Assembly: GCF_005886805.2 (NCBI RefSeq)
Contig: NZ_CP045430.1
Coordinates: forward strand, 1,116,001 to 1,180,000
From: Pseudoalteromonas rubra
Lineage (GTDB): Bacteria > Pseudomonadota > Gammaproteobacteria > Enterobacterales > Alteromonadaceae
Reading direction: 5' to 3'
DNA length: 64,000 nt
Under the pieces are notes generated by a model. The model did no database searches. It was given only the letters and a program-made list of their open reading frames with translations, and had not been told where the DNA came from. Made by a program: the position numbers and the translations under genes. Of this stretch, positions 8,957-47,658 are shown one piece after another; within the stretch, counting starts at the first letter, position 1; each line of letters begins with the position of its first letter.

Positions 8957-9522
8957 AGCCAGTTATAGTCCATTTGGCGGGCCGTTTTAATCGCCAATGA
9001 TTTGCCAAAGTGCAGCTTTACCAGCTCAAGGCTCATGTCGATACCTGCTGACACTCCCGCAGAGCTGGTAAAATTCTGATCCATGACAAACCGTTTATCC
9101 TCACACACTTTCAGATGCGGATAACTGGTTTGCAACCGTGCCAAATCATCCCAATGCGTGGTCACTGATTTACCGTCAATTAGCCCAGCTTCGGCAAACA
9201 AAAAGACCCCAGTGCACACTGATGCACAGCGACGGGTATGCGTCGCTGTTTCAGCCAGCCAGGCCAACACAGAGGTATTGCTGAGTACATGCTGATGCTG
9301 CCCACCTGCAACAATCAGTAAATCAAATCTGGGATGACCGTGAATGCTGTAATGCGGGTTTACAGACAAACCACCACGGCAACTGACGGGGGCATGACTG
9401 GGTGCAATCAGGCTGACGTTTACGGGCTCGTCTACAAAACGAGCAGCCGTGCTGAACACTTCAAATGGGCCGCTAAAGTCCAAGACTTCAACGCCATCGT
9501 AAATAAAAATACCGATTTCCAT
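8953..9522 (-). CDS. DJ-1/PfpI family protein (GATase1-like)
   Basis: The start at 9522 (MEIGIFIYDGVEVLDFSGPF) matches the usual N-terminus of this family; an ATG 60 bp upstream would add 20 non-homologous residues and has no better ribosome site. The 189-residue protein has the nucleophile-elbow Cys in CASVCTGVF (about residue 104) and the conserved GKSVTTHW segment. Family members include isonitrile hydratase-like enzymes and the sensor halves of GlxA regulators; this one lacks an AraC domain. The specific reaction cannot be assigned. Confidence 0.8.
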   Translation of the reverse strand: MEIGIFIYDGVEVLDFSGPFEVFSTAARFVDEPVNVSLIAPSHAPVSCRGGLSVNPHYSIHGHPRFDLLIVAGGQHQHVLSNTSVLAWLAETATHTRRCASVCTGVFLFAEAGLIDGKSVTTHWDDLARLQTSYPHLKVCEDKRFVMDQNFTSSAGVSAGIDMSLELVKLHFGKSLAIKTARQMDYNWL

Positions 9523-9693: not shown

Positions 9694-11862
9694 ATGTTGA
9701 AAATCAAACTAACACTACTTAGCGCCGCCGTCGTGATCGGTCTGGCAGGTTGTAGCAGCACGCAGCAAAGCAGCACAGCCACGCCAACAATTGCAGAAAA
9801 GCAATATCAAAACCCGCTTTTACAGCCTTTTACCGGTCCTTATCAGGGCGTTCCTCAATTCGATAAAGTAAAACTGACAGATCTTGAGCCTGCGCTGGAC
9901 ATCGCGCTGGCTGATCACTTAAGCGAAATTGACCTGATTGCCAACAACACCGCACCAGCGACGTTCGACAATACTATCGTTGCAATGGAGCGTTCAGGTC
10001 AGGCATTGGATCGCCTTTTTACCTACTTTGGTATCTGGAGCGCCAACAATTCCTCTCCTGAATTTCGCCAAATGCAGGGCGGCCTGATGGCTAAGTACGC
10101 TCAATACCGTTCTAAAATCACCCAAAACAAGGCGTTATTTGAGCGTGTTAAAACAGTGTATGAGAGCCAAGAGTTTAAGCAACTGAGTGCTGAAGAACAG
10201 CGTATCACCTGGCTACAGTACAACAGCTTTGCCCGTAACGGTGCCACATTGGAAGGTAAAGCCGCTGATCGCTACGCCGAAATTAACCTCGCTTTATCAA
10301 AGCTACACGCAGACTTTGCCAATAATGTACTTGCCGATGAAGAAGGCTATGTCGTTTATCTGACGAAAGATCAACTTTCTGGCCTGCCTCAGTCCTACAT
10401 TACCTCTGCGGCTGCAGCGGCTGAAGAACGCGGTAAAACAGGTATGTATGCGGTTACCAATACCCGCTCTTCCATGGACCCATTCCTGATGTACTCCACG
10501 GAACGTGAGCTACGTAAGCAGGTGTGGCAGAACTACTACAGCCGTGGCAATAATGCCGGTGAACATAATAACAAAGCCATCATTAATGAAATCCTGACAT
10601 TACGTCACGAGCGAGTGCAGCTCCTCGGTTATGAAAACTACGCACAATGGCGTCTTGAAGACCGCATGGCTAAAGATCCGAAAAACGCGATGGAGCTGAT
10701 GGACAAAGTCTGGCCAGCCGCAATTGCCCGTGTAAAAGAAGAAGTGGCAGACATGCAAGCGCTGGCAGATAAGGAAGGCGCCAACATTAAGATTGAGCCT
10801 TGGGATTACCGCTTTTACTCTGAGAAAGTGCGCAAAGCCAAGTACGACCTGGACTCTAACGAAGTTAAACAATACCTTCAGCTGGACAAACTACGTGACG
10901 CTATGTTCTACGTCGCGGGCCGCCTGTTTAACTTCGAGTTTACCGAAGTGCCAGAAGGGTCAGTACCTGTCTTCCATGAAGACGTACGTGTATGGGAAGT
11001 CACCGATAAAACCAGCGGTGAGCATATTGGCTTATGGTACTTAGACCCATTCGCTCGTCAGGGCAAGCGCTCAGGTGCATGGGCAACCTCATACCGCGGC
11101 CACACCACCTTTGATGGCAAAACCAACGTACTGAGCTCGAACAACTCAAACTTCGTCAAAGCACCAGCAGGGCAGGCTAGCCTGATCTCCTGGAACGATG
11201 CTGTGACCTATTTCCATGAGTTCGGACATGCGCTGCATTCTCTGTCTTCTAAAGTAAAATACCCTGGCTCTAACTCGGGCGTACGTGACTACACTGAATT
11301 CCAGTCGCAGCTACTGGAACGTTGGCTGGTCACCGATGAAGTCATTGATCGTTTCCTGGTTCACCATGAAACGGGTAAGCCAATGCCGAAAACACTGGTG
11401 AATAAAATCAAGCAAGCAGCCAACTTCAATCAGGGCTTCGCCACCACTGAATACCTGGCATCAGCCATTATGGATATGAAGTTCCACACCACAGATCCAG
11501 CTCAGATTGGCGATCCGGTTGAATTTGAAAAATCTCAACTGGCTGCCATTGGTATGCCATCAGAGATTGTCATGCGTCACCGCACCACACACTTTGGTCA
11601 TGTTTTCTCAGGTGAAGGCTATTCAGCCGGCTACTACGGCTACCTGTGGGCCGAAGTGCTGACATCAGATGCAGCACAGGCATTTGCCAGCGCACCAGGT
11701 GGCTTTTATGACGAAGAAGTCGCTGATCGTCTGGTGAACTACCTGTTCTCTGTACGTAACGCAATGGACCCGGCAGAGGCGTACCGCAAGTTCCGTGGTC
11801 GTGATGCGGCGGTAGAAGCCCTAATGTTAGATCGCGGCTTCCCGGTTAATGCAGACAAGTAA
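9694..11862 (+). CDS. dcp: M3 family zinc metallopeptidase (Dcp-like) lipoprotein
   Basis: 722 residues with a lipoprotein leader (lipobox LAGC, Cys 20), so it is anchored in the envelope, unlike cytoplasmic E. coli Dcp. The zinc site HEFGH is at residues 508-512. The rest fits the thimet-oligopeptidase fold of peptidyl-dipeptidase Dcp/oligopeptidase A (YLDPFARQGKRSGAW, GHVFSGEGYSAGYYGYLW). It probably removes C-terminal dipeptides from short peptides in the periplasm, feeding peptide uptake. Single-gene unit with its own terminator. Dcp versus another M3A subgroup is not settled from sequence alone. Confidence 0.9.
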   Translation: MLKIKLTLLSAAVVIGLAGCSSTQQSSTATPTIAEKQYQNPLLQPFTGPYQGVPQFDKVKLTDLEPALDIALADHLSEIDLIANNTAPATFDNTIVAMERSGQALDRLFTYFGIWSANNSSPEFRQMQGGLMAKYAQYRSKITQNKALFERVKTVYESQEFKQLSAEEQRITWLQYNSFARNGATLEGKAADRYAEINLALSKLHADFANNVLADEEGYVVYLTKDQLSGLPQSYITSAAAAAEERGKTGMYAVTNTRSSMDPFLMYSTERELRKQVWQNYYSRGNNAGEHNNKAIINEILTLRHERVQLLGYENYAQWRLEDRMAKDPKNAMELMDKVWPAAIARVKEEVADMQALADKEGANIKIEPWDYRFYSEKVRKAKYDLDSNEVKQYLQLDKLRDAMFYVAGRLFNFEFTEVPEGSVPVFHEDVRVWEVTDKTSGEHIGLWYLDPFARQGKRSGAWATSYRGHTTFDGKTNVLSSNNSNFVKAPAGQASLISWNDAVTYFHEFGHALHSLSSKVKYPGSNSGVRDYTEFQSQLLERWLVTDEVIDRFLVHHETGKPMPKTLVNKIKQAANFNQGFATTEYLASAIMDMKFHTTDPAQIGDPVEFEKSQLAAIGMPSEIVMRHRTTHFGHVFSGEGYSAGYYGYLWAEVLTSDAAQAFASAPGGFYDEEVADRLVNYLFSVRNAMDPAEAYRKFRGRDAAVEALMLDRGFPVNADK

Positions 11863-38663: not shown

Positions 38664-39599
38664 ATGGATAAGCTCAGAGCACTGCGCTATTTTAAGCGTG
38701 TTGTTGAATTAAATAGTTTCAGCGCTGTTGCCGAGGAGTTTTCGGTGCCCGCTTCTTCTGTATCAAGACGAATTAAAGATCTGGAAGCGTCACTGGGGAT
38801 CGAACTGATCAAACGAACGACTCGCCACGTCAGTATTACAGAGTTAGGGCAGATCTACTATCAACATATTGGTGAGATCCTCAGTAAGCTGACTTACGCC
38901 GATGAACTGATCTCACAAAGCTTTGATAATCCGAGTGGTACGCTAAAAGTCAGTGCGCCTCCCGGCCTATCGAAAGCGCTGCTGGTACCCTTGTTTCGGC
39001 GTTTTCGCCAGCAATTTCCAAATATTTTGCTAGACCTCGACTACACCAATGAATATGCACTCTTCGGGCAAGACTCTGTCGATCTGGCGATCAGGGGTGG
39101 ACCGGTTGACGATACCCGTCTTATCGCCAAACCGCTTATTCGCAGTGGTTTTACACTGTGGGCGCACACCAAACTGGCTGATCGACTAAATACACAATTT
39201 GGCACCACCAACTGGTCTATCGAGCAACTCTGTCGCTGTCCGGCCATCATGTTTCGCAGTAAAACAGCCCTCGTCCCATGGTGGGCACACGAGCAAGGCG
39301 ACTGGCAGCCTGTGTCTAGTCAACCAGTTCTGATCAGCAATGACAGTGCAACTTTACTGGATGCGCTTGCTCACGGCGAAGGCCTGTTACTGGCCCCCGA
39401 CTGGCTGCTCCCCGCACACCTAAAAAACCAGGTAACGCCCGTTGCACAGCACCATAAGTTGTCGCCTGGTAAGATAGACACAGTAGAAATAAACCTGGTG
39501 TATCAACACGCCAAGTATCAGCTACCGAATATAAAACTCAGCGTCGACTTTATATGTGACTATATGCGTACTCATGCTGCCGATATGGTAAAATTCTGA
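38664..39599 (+). CDS. LysR family regulator of azoR
   Basis: ATG at 38664 (MDKLRALRYFKRVVELNSFS) is the standard LysR start; the frame upstream begins at a TTG with no homology. 311 residues: winged helix SAVAEEFSVPASSVSRRIKDLE, effector domain of the DmlR/CrgA branch (GTLKVSAPPGLSKALLVP). Divergent from azoR, the probable target; it may sense quinones or electrophiles. Confidence 0.9.
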   Translation: MDKLRALRYFKRVVELNSFSAVAEEFSVPASSVSRRIKDLEASLGIELIKRTTRHVSITELGQIYYQHIGEILSKLTYADELISQSFDNPSGTLKVSAPPGLSKALLVPLFRRFRQQFPNILLDLDYTNEYALFGQDSVDLAIRGGPVDDTRLIAKPLIRSGFTLWAHTKLADRLNTQFGTTNWSIEQLCRCPAIMFRSKTALVPWWAHEQGDWQPVSSQPVLISNDSATLLDALAHGEGLLLAPDWLLPAHLKNQVTPVAQHHKLSPGKIDTVEINLVYQHAKYQLPNIKLSVDFICDYMRTHAADMVKF

Positions 39600-39683
39600 T
39601 CTGAATTAACACATTGAATTATATAAACTAAATTAGATATCTTAGTGAGTACACCGGTATTGGCGGCGTCAGCTAACAGATCA

Positions 39684-40613
39684 CTATTTTACTAACTTGG
39701 TTTCATCATGGTCTAGCTCATGAAAGTCACAGAACTGAGTAATAAACCAGCCAATTTTAGGATCGCGCTTGCGCGTCCGGTGCCAATACAACTTTAACTG
39801 GTAGTCAGGCACCGGGAGCGGTGGCGGCTGTAACTGAAGGTTTAATCTGTCACACACCTGCAAGGCATAACGCCTGGGCATAGTCAGCAACATATCACTC
39901 TCTGGTAGCAACGTTGGCGCCACCAACACATGTGGGGTTGTCACTGCGATGGTTCTGGATTTCTTAATTTTTGCCAATGCTTTATCGACTATCCCCCGAC
40001 GCTCATTCCATGGCGCAATCAATATGTGCGGATATGCTATAAAGGTACTCAAATCTAATTGTTGTTTGTATGGGTGAGACTGACAACATACTGTCACGTA
40101 AGCATCTTCAAACCAGCTAAGCTGGGTCAGGCCCTCCGAGAATTCCTGCTGATGCGCAAATCCACATACCAAATCCAGGCTACCTTCTTTCAGAGCCTGC
40201 TCTGCTATACGTTCCTCCAGCTGGACAAAGCGGATATCCAGATTGTCAAACAAGCCAACCAAATGAGTCACAAAAGGTCGCAGACACCAGGCAGTGTAAT
40301 CGGTCACCGCTATCGTGAGTGTATGAGGTTCATTTGCATCAAACGGACTGGCCTCTTGCAACCCTCCTTCCAGCATCTGCAAAGCCGGTAACACGGTCTT
40401 TGCCAGCCGATGTGCATGCGCGGTTGCCAGCATGCGATTATTCACCCGCACAAATAGTTCATCACCCAGACGCTCGCGGAGCCGGGTCAGTGCGTGACTA
40501 CATGCAGACTGACTGAGATTCAGCTGCTCAGCAGAGAGCGTAACCGAGCCATTCTGATACAAAGCAGCAAACAGTTTAAGCAGATTAAGATCCAGATTAG
40601 GCAAGTGTTTCAT
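39684..40613 (-). CDS. LysR family regulator (NodD/LeuO-like)
   Basis: 309 residues, helix-turn-helix VTLSAEQLNLSQSACSHALTRLRERLGDELFVR, then an effector domain typical of the NodD/NahR/LeuO branch. Divergent from a GNAT gene across 101 bp with an AT-rich region including GCACGTGC and ATTCAT-TT-ATGAAT palindromes. The GNAT gene is the likely target. Confidence 0.88.
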   Translation of the reverse strand: MKHLPNLDLNLLKLFAALYQNGSVTLSAEQLNLSQSACSHALTRLRERLGDELFVRVNNRMLATAHAHRLAKTVLPALQMLEGGLQEASPFDANEPHTLTIAVTDYTAWCLRPFVTHLVGLFDNLDIRFVQLEERIAEQALKEGSLDLVCGFAHQQEFSEGLTQLSWFEDAYVTVCCQSHPYKQQLDLSTFIAYPHILIAPWNERRGIVDKALAKIKKSRTIAVTTPHVLVAPTLLPESDMLLTMPRRYALQVCDRLNLQLQPPPLPVPDYQLKLYWHRTRKRDPKIGWFITQFCDFHELDHDETKLVK

Positions 40614-44771: not shown

Positions 44772-45068
44772 ATGTCGCTATCGCCTTACTTTGCTTACTT
44801 TACAGCCTATCGCATAAATGTTGTTACCCGGTTTGCACTCGCTATTTTCGGGGGGTATGCATGCACCGCGCTTTCTATCAGCCTAATGAGTTTGTTGCTG
44901 CCTGTCTCCAAAGTTGATGCCGTGTTATTCAGCGTGTGCCTGAGTGTAGTCATTCACTGCCTTATTTTTATCGCTGTATTCGCAACAAAATCGCTTCGCT
45001 TCCTCTGTGGTGGTTTACTGCTGCTCGCAATAGTGCAATGGCTGCTGATCCTGATATTAAGAGGATAA
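44772..45068 (+). CDS. DUF3649 membrane protein (iron-uptake associated)
   Basis: ATG at 44772 gives 98 residues with three TM helices; a GTG at 44733 is the alternative. The composition and position before a PepSY protein and a DUF3325 protein match the DUF3649-PepSY-DUF3325 set found next to siderophore receptor genes in many proteobacteria. Function not established; probably inner-membrane handling of iron or ferric-siderophore reduction. First gene after a Fur-like box; next gene begins 2 bp after its stop. Confidence 0.72.
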   Translation: MSLSPYFAYFTAYRINVVTRFALAIFGGYACTALSISLMSLLLPVSKVDAVLFSVCLSVVIHCLIFIAVFATKSLRFLCGGLLLLAIVQWLLILILRG

Positions 45069-45070
45069 TA

Positions 45071-46633
45071 ATGAAAGACAGTTTTTTTCGTTCTATGACC
45101 TGGCTCCATACCTGGGTCGGATTACTTTTTTGCTGGCTGTTGTGGCTGGTGTTTTTTGCGGGTACGCTAAGCTTTTTCCGCCAGGAAATTACCCTGTGGA
45201 GCAAACCTGAGCTACACCCCCACAGCATTGAAGTTCAGAGTTCACAACAAGCGCTACTGGACTACGGCTTTGAACGCCTGAACTCAGAAGCGCCTGACGC
45301 AGCACGATGGTGGATCAGCTTGCCGTCTGAGCGCAACTCGCTACTGCGCGTCTCGCACCTGCCCTATGCTGAGCCAGGCGAAAAAGCCAGTTGGGTCAGC
45401 CATAACCTGGCGGCCGATAGCAAAATTCCCGTGACTCCGAGGGAGTCAAAAGGCGGGAGCTTCTTTTATCGTCTGCATTTTGACTTACATTATATGGACC
45501 GTACCACCGCGCGCTGGATAGTGTGTCTGGCCAGCCTGTTTATGTTGGTTGCTCTGGTCTCAGGCATTGTGATCCACAAACGTATTTTCAAGGATATGTT
45601 CCAATTCAGAGCGGGCAAGGGCAGTCGCAGTTGGCTCGATGGACATAACCTGAGCTCAGTACTGGCTTTGCCATTTCATCTGATGATCACCTACACAGGG
45701 CTGATCACACTTATTTTTACGCTTTTCCCGTATCCGGCGCAAACTGTGTATGGCGATGGGGTTAAAGAGTTCAGAAAAGAATTTTACCCGGAACGACAGC
45801 GCCCTCAGCTGAGCAACCAGACACTGACCGATCCGGCTTTTTCACAGTCGTTAGATCACTTTTTTACTAACTGGCCAGAGCAACCTATTTCTCGCATCAT
45901 CATAGATCACCCTCAGGATGCAGCGGCAGTAATGAAAATTTACGGTGCGAACCGCAGTGAAATAAAAGACGAGCAAGCAGTCTGGTTATATTCAGGCAAA
46001 ACGGGTGAACTCCTGAACACTGTGCACCTTGAAAACAGTACTGCGGCTCAATTATATGGCGGTATGATTGCCATGCATACCGGACGTCTGGCATCTCCCG
46101 GCTTGCGTTGGTTGTACTTTCTTTGTGGCCTGGCAGGCTGCGCTATGATTGCCAGTGGCTGTGTTATGTGGGCCAAACGGATCCGAGAGCGACAAAAACC
46201 CACTCAGCCAGCCAGTTTTGGTCTCAAGTTGGTCGAGTCGCTCAACCTGGCAGCCATCATGGGCCTGCCACTGGCTACAGCGGCATTCTTCTACGCCAAT
46301 CGGCTCCTGCCTGTCGGTAACAATGGTCGTGCCGATCAGGAAGTACTGGCATTTTTCCTGATCTGGGCTGCTGCAACGCTGTTTGCCGCTAAGTGGCGAA
46401 ATACTCAAGGCTGGCATACTCTGGCACTTGCCAATACCTTTGCCTGGCTCATGCTGCCCTTGTGCAATGCTCTTACAACACACGGCAATTTAATCAGTTA
46501 CATAAGCAATGGTCAGTGGTCATTGGCTATGTTCGATATACTGGCTCTGTTAGCCGCAGGCGTATTTTTCTGGCAGAGTAAAAAGCTTCAATCAGCTCAG
46601 CCACTGCGCGCCCGCAAGGAGCGTGCTGCATGA
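45071..46633 (+). CDS. PepSY-associated TM protein (iron-uptake type)
   Basis: ATG at 45071 in the GAGGATAATAATG context; the frame is open upstream inside the DUF3649 gene but that part is not homologous. 520 residues: TM at 10-35 (SMTWLHTWVGLLFCWLLWLVFF), a long periplasmic region, TM near 145-165 and 200-225, then several C-terminal TM helices. His residues in LHTWVG, LHFDLHYMD and DGHNLSSVLALPFHLMI are the conserved ones of this family, some members of which are ferric-siderophore reductases. The 4-bp overlap with DUF3325 indicates translational coupling. Confidence 0.85.
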   Translation: MKDSFFRSMTWLHTWVGLLFCWLLWLVFFAGTLSFFRQEITLWSKPELHPHSIEVQSSQQALLDYGFERLNSEAPDAARWWISLPSERNSLLRVSHLPYAEPGEKASWVSHNLAADSKIPVTPRESKGGSFFYRLHFDLHYMDRTTARWIVCLASLFMLVALVSGIVIHKRIFKDMFQFRAGKGSRSWLDGHNLSSVLALPFHLMITYTGLITLIFTLFPYPAQTVYGDGVKEFRKEFYPERQRPQLSNQTLTDPAFSQSLDHFFTNWPEQPISRIIIDHPQDAAAVMKIYGANRSEIKDEQAVWLYSGKTGELLNTVHLENSTAAQLYGGMIAMHTGRLASPGLRWLYFLCGLAGCAMIASGCVMWAKRIRERQKPTQPASFGLKLVESLNLAAIMGLPLATAAFFYANRLLPVGNNGRADQEVLAFFLIWAAATLFAAKWRNTQGWHTLALANTFAWLMLPLCNALTTHGNLISYISNGQWSLAMFDILALLAAGVFFWQSKKLQSAQPLRARKERAA

Positions 46634-46962
46634 TGTATCTGATAGCGACCTTGTTATGTCTCTCAAGCTTCACGGCCTTTGCGCTGGCTAAGACACCGCA
46701 CTACAAAGCGGTGTTTGGGGCAAGACCCGACCAGATCCAGAGTAAAAGATATCTACTTTCAGCCTGGATCATGCTTTTACTAACTCTGGTTATCGATATC
46801 AGCCAGGCCGTTGGATACGGCAGCCTGATGTTCTGCGGCCAGATGGCCCTCGCCGTTTTACTGATGGCGGTCATGCTGTCCTTCCGACCACGCTGGATAA
46901 GATCACTATTTTACCTACTCCCTGCAGCCACACTCATTATGGCTGTGCTTGCCATGTTATAA
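46630..46962 (+). CDS. DUF3325 membrane protein
   Basis: 110 residues with three TM helices, overlapping the PepSY gene by 4 bp (ATGA). DUF3325 proteins follow the PepSY protein in iron-uptake operons; role unknown. A GC-rich stem-loop (46968-46992, AGGGGCTGA / TCAGCCCCT) follows without a clear T tract. Confidence 0.75.
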   Translation: MMYLIATLLCLSSFTAFALAKTPHYKAVFGARPDQIQSKRYLLSAWIMLLLTLVIDISQAVGYGSLMFCGQMALAVLLMAVMLSFRPRWIRSLFYLLPAATLIMAVLAML

Positions 46963-47658
46963 AAACCAGGGGCTGAGCCTAGTTCAGCCCCTACTCATGC
47001 TATAAATCAAACAGATAGATACAACAACTCAGTCAATTTTCCAGCCCGTTGGAGCAAAAAATTACCAACTTGCTCAAAAATCCCTCCTGAGCTGCTCTCA
47101 TCCACTTTGATACACCCGGATCTTAGTAAAAAACCCGCTCTGAGTGACGCTATGCATGTCGAACGTTAGTAAAATGATGATCTCTGACTCAAAATGACGC
47201 TTCTTAGTTGGTAAAAATACGATCCAGGAACAAAAGCAGTTAGTAAATTACTGATCTCAGTGCTGATCGCTTTACCAAGTAGTTAGTAAAAATATGATCT
47301 ATAGTCACCAAAAACCTGATTTATTCGCCATCTGCCCACCTAAAAATAGTCACTACAGGAAACAATACTGATCCGTTGACCAAAAACCTGCCAAATGCCT
47401 TTAGAGTTAGTAAATTCGTGATCTGAACCGGATTAGGTTAGTAATACTTTGATCTGGATGACGATAATGTTAGTTAATACGTGATCCAGCAGAATGCATC
47501 AGTTAGTAAAATAACGATCTGTCGACTCATTGGGCTTACCGATGCCTGTCATACTGGCTGAGTTGGTAAAAACCCGATCTCACTGTATAGATCCAATCCA
47601 CAGGAGTGTCCGTTTAATAAAGACAACAAATTAAAATAGTCAGCGCAGGGGAAAGCAC
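46963..47658. other. Gene-free region carrying phased repeats
   Basis: No frame of useful length and no ribosome site. A stem-loop after DUF3325 (46968-46992), then the 19-mer array (47122-47580), then the SDR ribosome site (AGGGGAAAG, 47648). Several additional GATC sites and degenerate half-copies are scattered between repeats. Confidence 0.8.
47122..47580 (+). repeat. Direct repeat array, consensus GTTRGTAAWWNNNYGATCY
   Basis: Nine 19-mers fit the consensus with at most one mismatch, all on the same strand, starting at 47165, 47207, 47239, 47282, 47406, 47437, 47469, 47502 and 47562; a tenth, with one extra base, ends at 47141, and a degenerate one may lie at 47356. Examples: GTTAGTAAAAATATGATCT, GTTAGTAAATTCGTGATCT. 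Centre spacings are 42, 42, 32, 43, 124, 31, 32, 33 and 60 bp, near whole helical turns (3, 4, 12, 6). Every unit but the tenth (GCTCT) ends in GATC, the Dam methylation site. Too short and too irregular for a CRISPR. Confidence 0.9.

Follow-up and report, generated by a model that had tools for sequence, protein, structure and literature searches.

The analysed window is a stretch of 64,000 nucleotides from Pseudoalteromonas rubra that covers 1116001-1180000 on the second of the genome's two contigs, which is 1,348,119 bp long; the replicon to which it belongs is the 1.35-Mb second chromosome (chromid). Toward its right-hand end lies a gene-free gap that holds a series of similar 19-mers, and related sites are found within and beyond the neighbouring genes, as follows (window positions):

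46963..47658, no strand: gap without an ORF of at least 80 aa, between the DUF3325-like ORF and an SDR gene (SDR by NCBIfam)
47165..47580, + strand: nine same-strand 19-mers GTTRGTAAWWNNNYGATCY, a proposed RepA-binding titration cluster
47051..47069, - strand: 19-mer with GCTC for GATC (one mismatch; pattern scan)
46630..46962, + strand: DUF3325-like gene, a conserved neighbour (tblastn to genes annotated DUF3325)
46900..46918, - strand: 19-mer with one mismatch, within the DUF3325-like ORF (ORF list and scan)
46766..46784, - strand: exact 19-mer, within the DUF3325-like ORF (ORF list and scan)
44936..46633, + strand: gene for a PepSY-associated TM-helix protein, a conserved neighbour outside the proposed mechanism
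45853..45871, - strand: exact 19-mer, within the PepSY-protein ORF (ORF list and scan)
39678..39696, - strand: exact 19-mer at the 3' end of a 309-aa ORF, which is LysR-type-like as judged by eye alone
39584..39602, + strand: 19-mer with two mismatches (pattern scan)
9064..9082, + strand: outlying 19-mer with one mismatch (pattern scan)
10008..10026, - strand: outlying 19-mer with one mismatch (pattern scan)

The nine copies of the array begin on the + strand at 47165, 47207, 47239, 47282, 47406, 47437, 47469, 47502, and 47562; eight are exact and one carries a single mismatch in the pattern scan of the window, and the start-to-start distances of 42, 32, 43, 124, 31, 32, 33, and 60 bp approximate whole helical turns. 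With up to three mismatches allowed, the window contains 27 matches against 7.5 expected, a number reached in none of 100 shuffles. The gap also contains the densest 459-bp GATC stretch of the window, with 12 sites compared with nine in the runner-up region. The scan, the shuffles, and the ORF list thus bear out the description in an earlier note on this DNA of a phased, GATC-rich array in a gene-free gap, with one adjustment: about ten copies had been claimed, of which nine are counted, the tenth, at 47122, being degenerate and devoid of GATC by eye. GATC sites number 13 over 47119-47590 and 11 within 47122-47580. The products of the PepSY gene (44936..46633) and the DUF3325-like gene (46630..46962) each gave no NCBIfam match; the PepSY name comes from the annotation of relatives (records NZ_CP077771 and NZ_CP045419), and tblastn matches to this gene lie near sites in six related chromids.

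Genome-wide, the exact pattern gives 21 matches and the reversed pattern none, and 19 of the 21 fall within 77 kb of chromosome 2, in the stretch that ends at the initiator gene repA. When two mismatches are allowed there are 117 matches vs 55 with the reversed pattern, so the loose matches are mostly due to chance. A weight matrix was built from the exact matches in the fetched loci and afterwards used for scanning, with 280 kb of the chromid away from ori2 as background, in which it finds 0.007 sites per kb at a threshold of 14; the thresholds applied were 10 for chromosome 1, 13 for ori2 and its flanks, and 15 for a set of nine chromids. The exact pattern is present in all 25 genomes of the genus and in none of 16 genomes of other families, and in a wider set of other genera 6 of 147 genomes have one match each and none has more. 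The case that the earlier note named as a refutation, a pattern of equal frequency in all intergenic regions, does not hold, given the background of 0.007 per kb. The genomes and loci counted are related and hence non-independent samples.

The replication region of the chromid lies at higher coordinates than the window, and its features are given below in chromid positions:

1229929-1230891: parB2 (NCBIfam)
1230908-1232140: parA2
701 bp: gap between parA2 and repA
1232842-1234056: repA (tblastn)
1237244-1238158: tus

The repA gene sits between parA2 and tus, and its product is 99% identical to RepA of P. rubra strains. The same gene set has been published for the Pseudoalteromonas chromid, and repA together with ori2 is needed for replication and able to drive it in P. 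spongiae and P. tunicata (PMC7858055). GC skew is negative in 21 of 22 sampled stretches of the chromid and slightly positive only at 1220001-1240000, as expected for one-way copying toward lower coordinates, the parAB side, from an origin near 1220001-1240000. Among the 99 genomes of the genus searched, 98 contain repA. The exception, G001, is a single 3.63-Mb contig rated 99% complete, which also lacks the MinD that sits on the second chromosome of the three genomes compared; because repA and the chromid MinD are both absent, the chromid is probably just missing from the assembly. G001 was therefore rejected as a case of natural chromid loss, and its intact chromosome 1 site is evidence neither way. 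In G023 (G023:C7:471413-472625), repA is matched as two pieces that overlap and differ in frame, and a TAA interrupts the second piece once, which is a frameshift or an assembly error.

The 19-mer recurs at the origin itself. At a threshold of 13, the ori2 region upstream of repA contains four to eight sites in all 74 named loci from public genomes, together with one to four DnaA-box-like sequences in each, so that, as in Rep-type origins with iterons, short repeated sites adjoin the initiator gene in every one of these loci. All of 30 genomes compared have five to seven copies, the positions of which hardly vary, around -450, -367, -157, -124, and -86 relative to repA, with a further one near -271 in some of these 30 loci, and the copies occur in both orientations. 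In one locus, G072:C2, about 960 bp of extra sequence, probably an insertion, lies between the ori2 sites and repA and shifts the sites away from the gene.

The predicted fold of RepA is that expected of a winged-helix initiator of the Rep/RctB kind, the Foldseek matches being RctB, pi, and RepE. The model was made from an alignment of 28 homologues, with homologue P0002, 89% identical to the P. rubra RepA, as the modelled sequence, and reached a pLDDT of 84.5 and a pTM of 0.86. Its best PDB match is RctB (E 9e-9), followed by pi with iteron DNA and RepE54; 47 PDB chains match at E below 1e-3 with a TM by query of 0.25-0.38, and the first five with 0.34-0.38. The similarity to RctB is moderate, with TM values of 0.38 and 0.50, an rmsd of 8 A, and 11% identity. 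When PDB sequences were searched with a profile of the first RepA alignment, chance matches alone resulted, and the protein matched no Pfam or NCBIfam family; an initiator of the IncFII RepA (R1) type was rejected, PF02387 giving no match.

Plasmids with related initiators carry comparable repeats. Pseudoalteromonas plasmid RepA proteins are about 49% identical to the chromid RepA, and the arrays upstream of their genes consist of AGATCGCATTTACACGTTATT or AGATCAGATTTACTACATGT, with GATC in nearly every copy; when read in reverse, the 19-mer has AGATC and TTTAC in common with these repeats, and the spacer of chromid and plasmid repeats differs by about 2 bp. Such repeats were found in six of eight further plasmid-type repA contigs, although one of the six has only two copies and two are near copies of the P. 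donghaensis plasmid; they are absent upstream of repA in the other two contigs (G105 and G004). Like the chromid, pTML1 (NC_015708), P. donghaensis NZ_CP032092, and P. carrageenovora NZ_CP027525 combine a repA homologue with GATC-bearing repeats near repA. Because of its position in ori2, the plasmid repeats, and the predicted fold of RepA, the 19-mer is read as an iteron that is very probably bound by the chromid initiator RepA.

Sites of the chromid type also occur on plasmids. The P. carrageenovora plasmid (L055 1904-2432) and a related plasmid-like contig, G008:C3 (L123), have three chromid-type 19-mers downstream of their own repA, in the order +,-,+ and about 250 bp apart, and G008:C3 has another repeat type upstream of repA as well. 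A plasmid with such sites could compete with, or couple to, the chromid initiator.

The pattern also forms a cluster at one conserved place on the main chromosome. P. rubra chromosome 1 contains two exact 19-mers, one of them within a cluster at 3925801-3926185 that adjoins fba, the gene for class II fructose-bisphosphate aldolase, and this is the sole cluster on that chromosome. At a threshold of 10, a cluster of four to nine copies lies downstream of fba in all 30 genomes, which were chosen from the 99 for their few contigs, the count being that of the densest cluster per fba locus. The cluster falls within the 1.5-kb flank in 27 of the 30 and is 1.5-2.3 kb off in G082, G085, and G091, where other sequence intervenes. 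In every one of the 30, all - copies precede all + copies, which makes two inverted half-arrays, and neighbouring same-strand copies are spaced by 21, 31, 41, 52, 62 bp, and so on, corresponding to whole helical turns (phasing R 0.93, n=112); the phasing R is 0.79 for the extra sites on the chromid and 0.72 for ori2. As with crtS of Vibrio cholerae, the element is thus a conserved non-coding locus on the main chromosome, beside the same gene in 30 of 30 genomes, its singleness being judged in the P. rubra genome. Between the two arms (centres of the elements in loci L089-L118 and L136-L138), 8 of 30 genomes contain a match to the strict IHF consensus, compared with 0.3 in shuffles, and two other genomes contain near matches; these IHF-like centres are only suggestive, because the relatives are non-independent.

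On the chromid, sites outside ori2 are concentrated on one side of repA. Within 10 kb of repA, the parAB side of the 74 loci contains 252 sites in 644 kb outside ori2, and the tus side contains 7 in 712 kb, which is the background level; at a larger scale, the tus side was covered over 26 kb in P. rubra and over about 100 kb in G085, the latter with one weak site outside ori2. At least one extra site occurs on the parAB side in 46 of the 74 loci, and none in the other 28 within the stretch covered. Most of these sites (208 of 252) lie 3-4 kb upstream of repA, and in SDCH90, one clade, they fall between parB2 and a helicase gene. Matrix scores average 25.8 for the window array, the top value among the four site classes compared, 23.3 for the extra sites less than 10 kb from repA, 19.4 for ori2, and 19.3 for chromosome 1.

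Further out, eight of nine chromids contain 12-25 extra sites over about 50-100 kb of the parAB side (threshold 15). The clusters recur beside the same genes, namely ICL with a sensor-kinase-like gene, a methyltransferase gene with its neighbour, and DUF3325 with PepSY, and the window array, which is 69 kb from repA and the largest extra-origin cluster of its genome, belongs to the last group. The statement of the earlier note that no rep gene lies beside the array is thus correct locally, with the qualification that repA lies on the same replicon. Sites at or near DUF3325/PepSY are found 26-86 kb from repA in G075, G077, G091, NC201, SDCH90, and THAF3, and HJ51 has four sites at 48-49 kb that adjoin the PepSY gene start at the end of the stretch. 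The possibility raised earlier, that relatives would lack the array or keep it only as scattered units, is mostly not borne out, as clusters are kept in six related chromids; the exceptions are SDCH90, in which nine DUF3325/PepSY-side sites are spread across 3.6 kb, and xiamenensis, in which one extra-origin site was found in 47 kb, the stretch ending short of DUF3325/PepSY.

Since several clusters are intergenic and beside conserved genes, the sites might instead be operators of an ordinary transcription factor for the ICL, PepSY/DUF3325, and fba-side genes. This is very unlikely: G100 keeps a cluster of 16 sites between the usual DUF3325/PepSY neighbours with neither gene matched in 80 kb, some sites lie within ORFs, and the sites recur at ori2, while genomes of other genera have at most one match. 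It is less probable still that the 19-mers are Tus/Ter fork-trap sites of the chromid; although tus adjoins repA and the Ter sites of Pseudoalteromonas are described as unknown in PMC7858055, the 19-mers face both directions in ori2 and in the chromosome 1 element, do not exceed background on the tus side, and are located 0.56-0.86 Mb from ori1 on chromosome 1, away from the terminus. The fork-trap reading was rejected on this orientation and placement, and its probability is close to nil.

A third alternative is that the 19-mer is parS2, the centromere of ParB2, spread around ori2 as is common for parS sites, with the window array as a ParB loading site. The sites are grouped close to parAB, on the same side of ori2 as those genes, and the majority of the extra sites in the 10-kb flank are 3-4 kb away from repA, which in SDCH90 puts them immediately after parB2, so that this region might also be a place for a centromere. 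The 19-mer itself, however, is non-palindromic in the matrix and forms phased direct repeats rather than the inverted repeat expected of parS, and the sites occupy near-fixed places in ori2 and on chromosome 1. ParB2 is only 62-69% identical among the 12 listed chromids, compared with 89-93% for RepA, yet one pattern fits all 25 genus genomes, and P. donghaensis NZ_CP032092, which has a PRTRC-type ParB by repA, still has repeats of the related kind ahead of that gene. Alternative centromere candidates exist near ori2 as distinct tandem arrays, built of 144-309-bp units and in some cases containing inverted repeats, in 24 of 74 loci and in the P. rubra genome. The parS2 reading is thus considered improbable.

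Between repA and tus, the P. rubra chromid has a 187-bp unit repeated 11.6 times at 1234279-1236418 (L036 14279-16418; alternatively read as a 373-bp unit), which could be a parS2 centromere. Its core pattern does not occur in the stretches from NC201, SDCH90, and xiamenensis, and the repeat was therefore rejected as a defining part of the system. Other tandem arrays (155-309 bp) lie on the repA-tus side in P. rubra-type loci and in one P. aurantia locus. In L205 and other loci, arrays with units of 144-199 bp lie about -7.6 to -6.5 kb from repA, in what the gene order of related records suggests is the gap between the helicase and rmuC genes, and several carry the palindrome TTACTA-N4-TAGTAA; these arrays about 7 kb upstream of repA are a second centromere candidate.

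The preferred reading of the extra-origin sites is titration of RepA. Dense predicted initiator sites lie off the origin, 26-86 kb from repA in six relatives, on the side judged by skew to be copied early, as is the case for datA-like loci, and an accumulation of sites at a distance from the origin, on the first-copied side, is how a titration locus would be arranged. Among the functions suggested in the earlier note, iteron-type titration of an initiator is strongly supported, and its pointer to the initiator of a second chromosome was apt. By analogy with the distal RctB cluster of V. cholerae, in which six RctB sites 40 kb from ori2 titrate the initiator (PMC6090056), the window array is probably an initiator-titration locus. 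RepA would bind the ori2 iterons upstream of repA to start chromid replication and, by inference, control its own gene there; the early-copied clusters, once duplicated, would soak up RepA and block a second start; and passage of the chromosome 1 fork through the fba-side array would alter the availability or form of RepA and so set the chromid start. Judged from sequence, this explanation of ori2, the extra-origin clusters, and the fba-side site by RepA iterons appears likely as a whole. Titration and triggering imply opposite immediate effects of doubling the sites, and the sequence is compatible with both.

The place of the fba-side array on chromosome 1 can be compared with the time at which the chromid should start. 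Both Pseudoalteromonas chromosomes finish together in the strains studied (PMC7858055), and such synchronous termination demands that the chromid starts when the chromosome 1 fork is 0.78-1.14 Mb out (20 genomes); distances from ori1 were taken from the 20 of 28 main-chromosome contigs that begin at dnaA, as read in their first 3 kb. The fba-side site, at 0.56-0.86 Mb, precedes the demanded start in all 20 genomes, by 65-449 kb (mean 264, sd 96), and in V. cholerae the delay after crtS is about 200 kb (PMC6090056). One-way chromid replication was assumed for 19 genomes and two-way replication for G002, the skew check of the replication mode covering G000, G091, G012, and G085 (4 of the 19) as well as G002. 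The distance from the site to ter1 correlates at r 0.91 with the length of chromid to be replicated, but the sizes of the two chromosomes themselves co-vary at r 0.89 and kinship is ignored; the partial r of the distance from the site to ori1 with chromid length, given chromosome 1 length, is -0.48, kinship again being ignored. Because the site stays by one gene, sizes co-vary, and about 25% of random places on chromosome 1 would give a lag in this range, the fit in timing is consistent but weak, and the correlation was rejected as proof, being confounded. The replication-timing function also considered in the earlier note is plausible, and the fba-side array is a candidate crtS-like trigger of chromid replication, a role for which the chances are about even.

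Nearly every copy of the 19-mer ends in GATC, and the P. rubra genome has both dam and seqA. These features, together with the 31-43-bp spacing, could point to a device in which hemimethylated phased GATC sites are bound by SeqA and the locus is sequestered, the remainder of the 19-mer being incidental. SeqA is not known to need the conserved GTTRGTAA half, and a site for SeqA alone is unlikely to track repA and the fba locus so closely, so that this explanation has a low probability. Methylation could act through RepA itself, and whether the RepA-site system depends on Dam is, from the sequence features, evenly poised. Methylation of both strands is required for RctB to bind its GATC iterons, and binding at crtS is independent of Dam (PMC11711613); if RepA behaves like RctB, the passing fork itself would switch the iteron-built chromosome 1 site. 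The chromosome 1 fork would then hemimethylate the fba-side array, RepA would be released or remodelled, and ori2 would be licensed, after which the chromid arrays would be replicated in turn, sequestering RepA and ending the period open to initiation. A cross-chromosome timer of Pseudoalteromonas's own, made of iterons with a Dam-site switch and evolved independently of Vibrio on a different initiator, is a speculative reading by analogy, conceivable but doubtful.

Published work (PMC7858055) suggested a chromosome 1 site that triggers the Pseudoalteromonas chromid, found no Vibrio crtS-like site, and stated that the mechanism of chromosome synchrony needs study, and a 2026 survey urges that timers of this sort be identified in genera other than Vibrio and Agrobacterium (PMC13342612). 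Among the accessible papers searched, none was found to describe RepA sites, clusters outside the origin, or a site on chromosome 1 for Pseudoalteromonas. Systems of this kind are known from Vibrio; within the literature searched, what is new is the lineage of the initiator, its sites, and a chromosome 1 element built of iterons. The finding offers a site in every genome examined, a presumed binding protein, and a binding motif, which makes the question of synchrony testable, and it adds another example in which to ask if the set of origin, sink, and trigger re-arises when a plasmid becomes a chromosome.

E. coli datA, with which PMC6090056 draws a comparison, is an initiator-binding cluster that limits re-initiation and serves DnaA and oriC; the chromid clusters resemble it as a proposed initiator-binding sink and differ in that the initiator is of the plasmid type. 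Among plasmids, pTML1 and NZ_CP032092 have repeat arrays at repA, to which the chromid system adds distant clusters and a chromosome 1 site, and the IncC RepB-family initiator is 26.6% identical to RepA. The closest parallels are in V. cholerae. Like the distal RctB cluster, the extra-origin clusters are predicted initiator sites tens of kb from ori2, with a proposed titration function like that of datA, but here there are several clusters per chromid, all of one 19-mer class; RctB likewise has GATC-containing iterons (PMC11711613), and the fold of RepA is predicted to be similar. Like crtS (PMC6090056, PMC5854411), the fba-side site is a short, genus-conserved non-coding locus of the main chromosome that lies ahead of the estimated chromid start and is presumably initiator-bound. 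In V. cholerae, the 12-mers and 39-mers of RctB show no homology with crtS (PMC6090056), whereas the fba-side site consists of the presumed iterons of the initiator itself, GATC-bearing and arranged as two inverted arms. If the timer reading is true, the two genera would have reached an origin, a distal sink, and a main-chromosome site independently, with a methylation switch in Pseudoalteromonas and a dedicated site in Vibrio.
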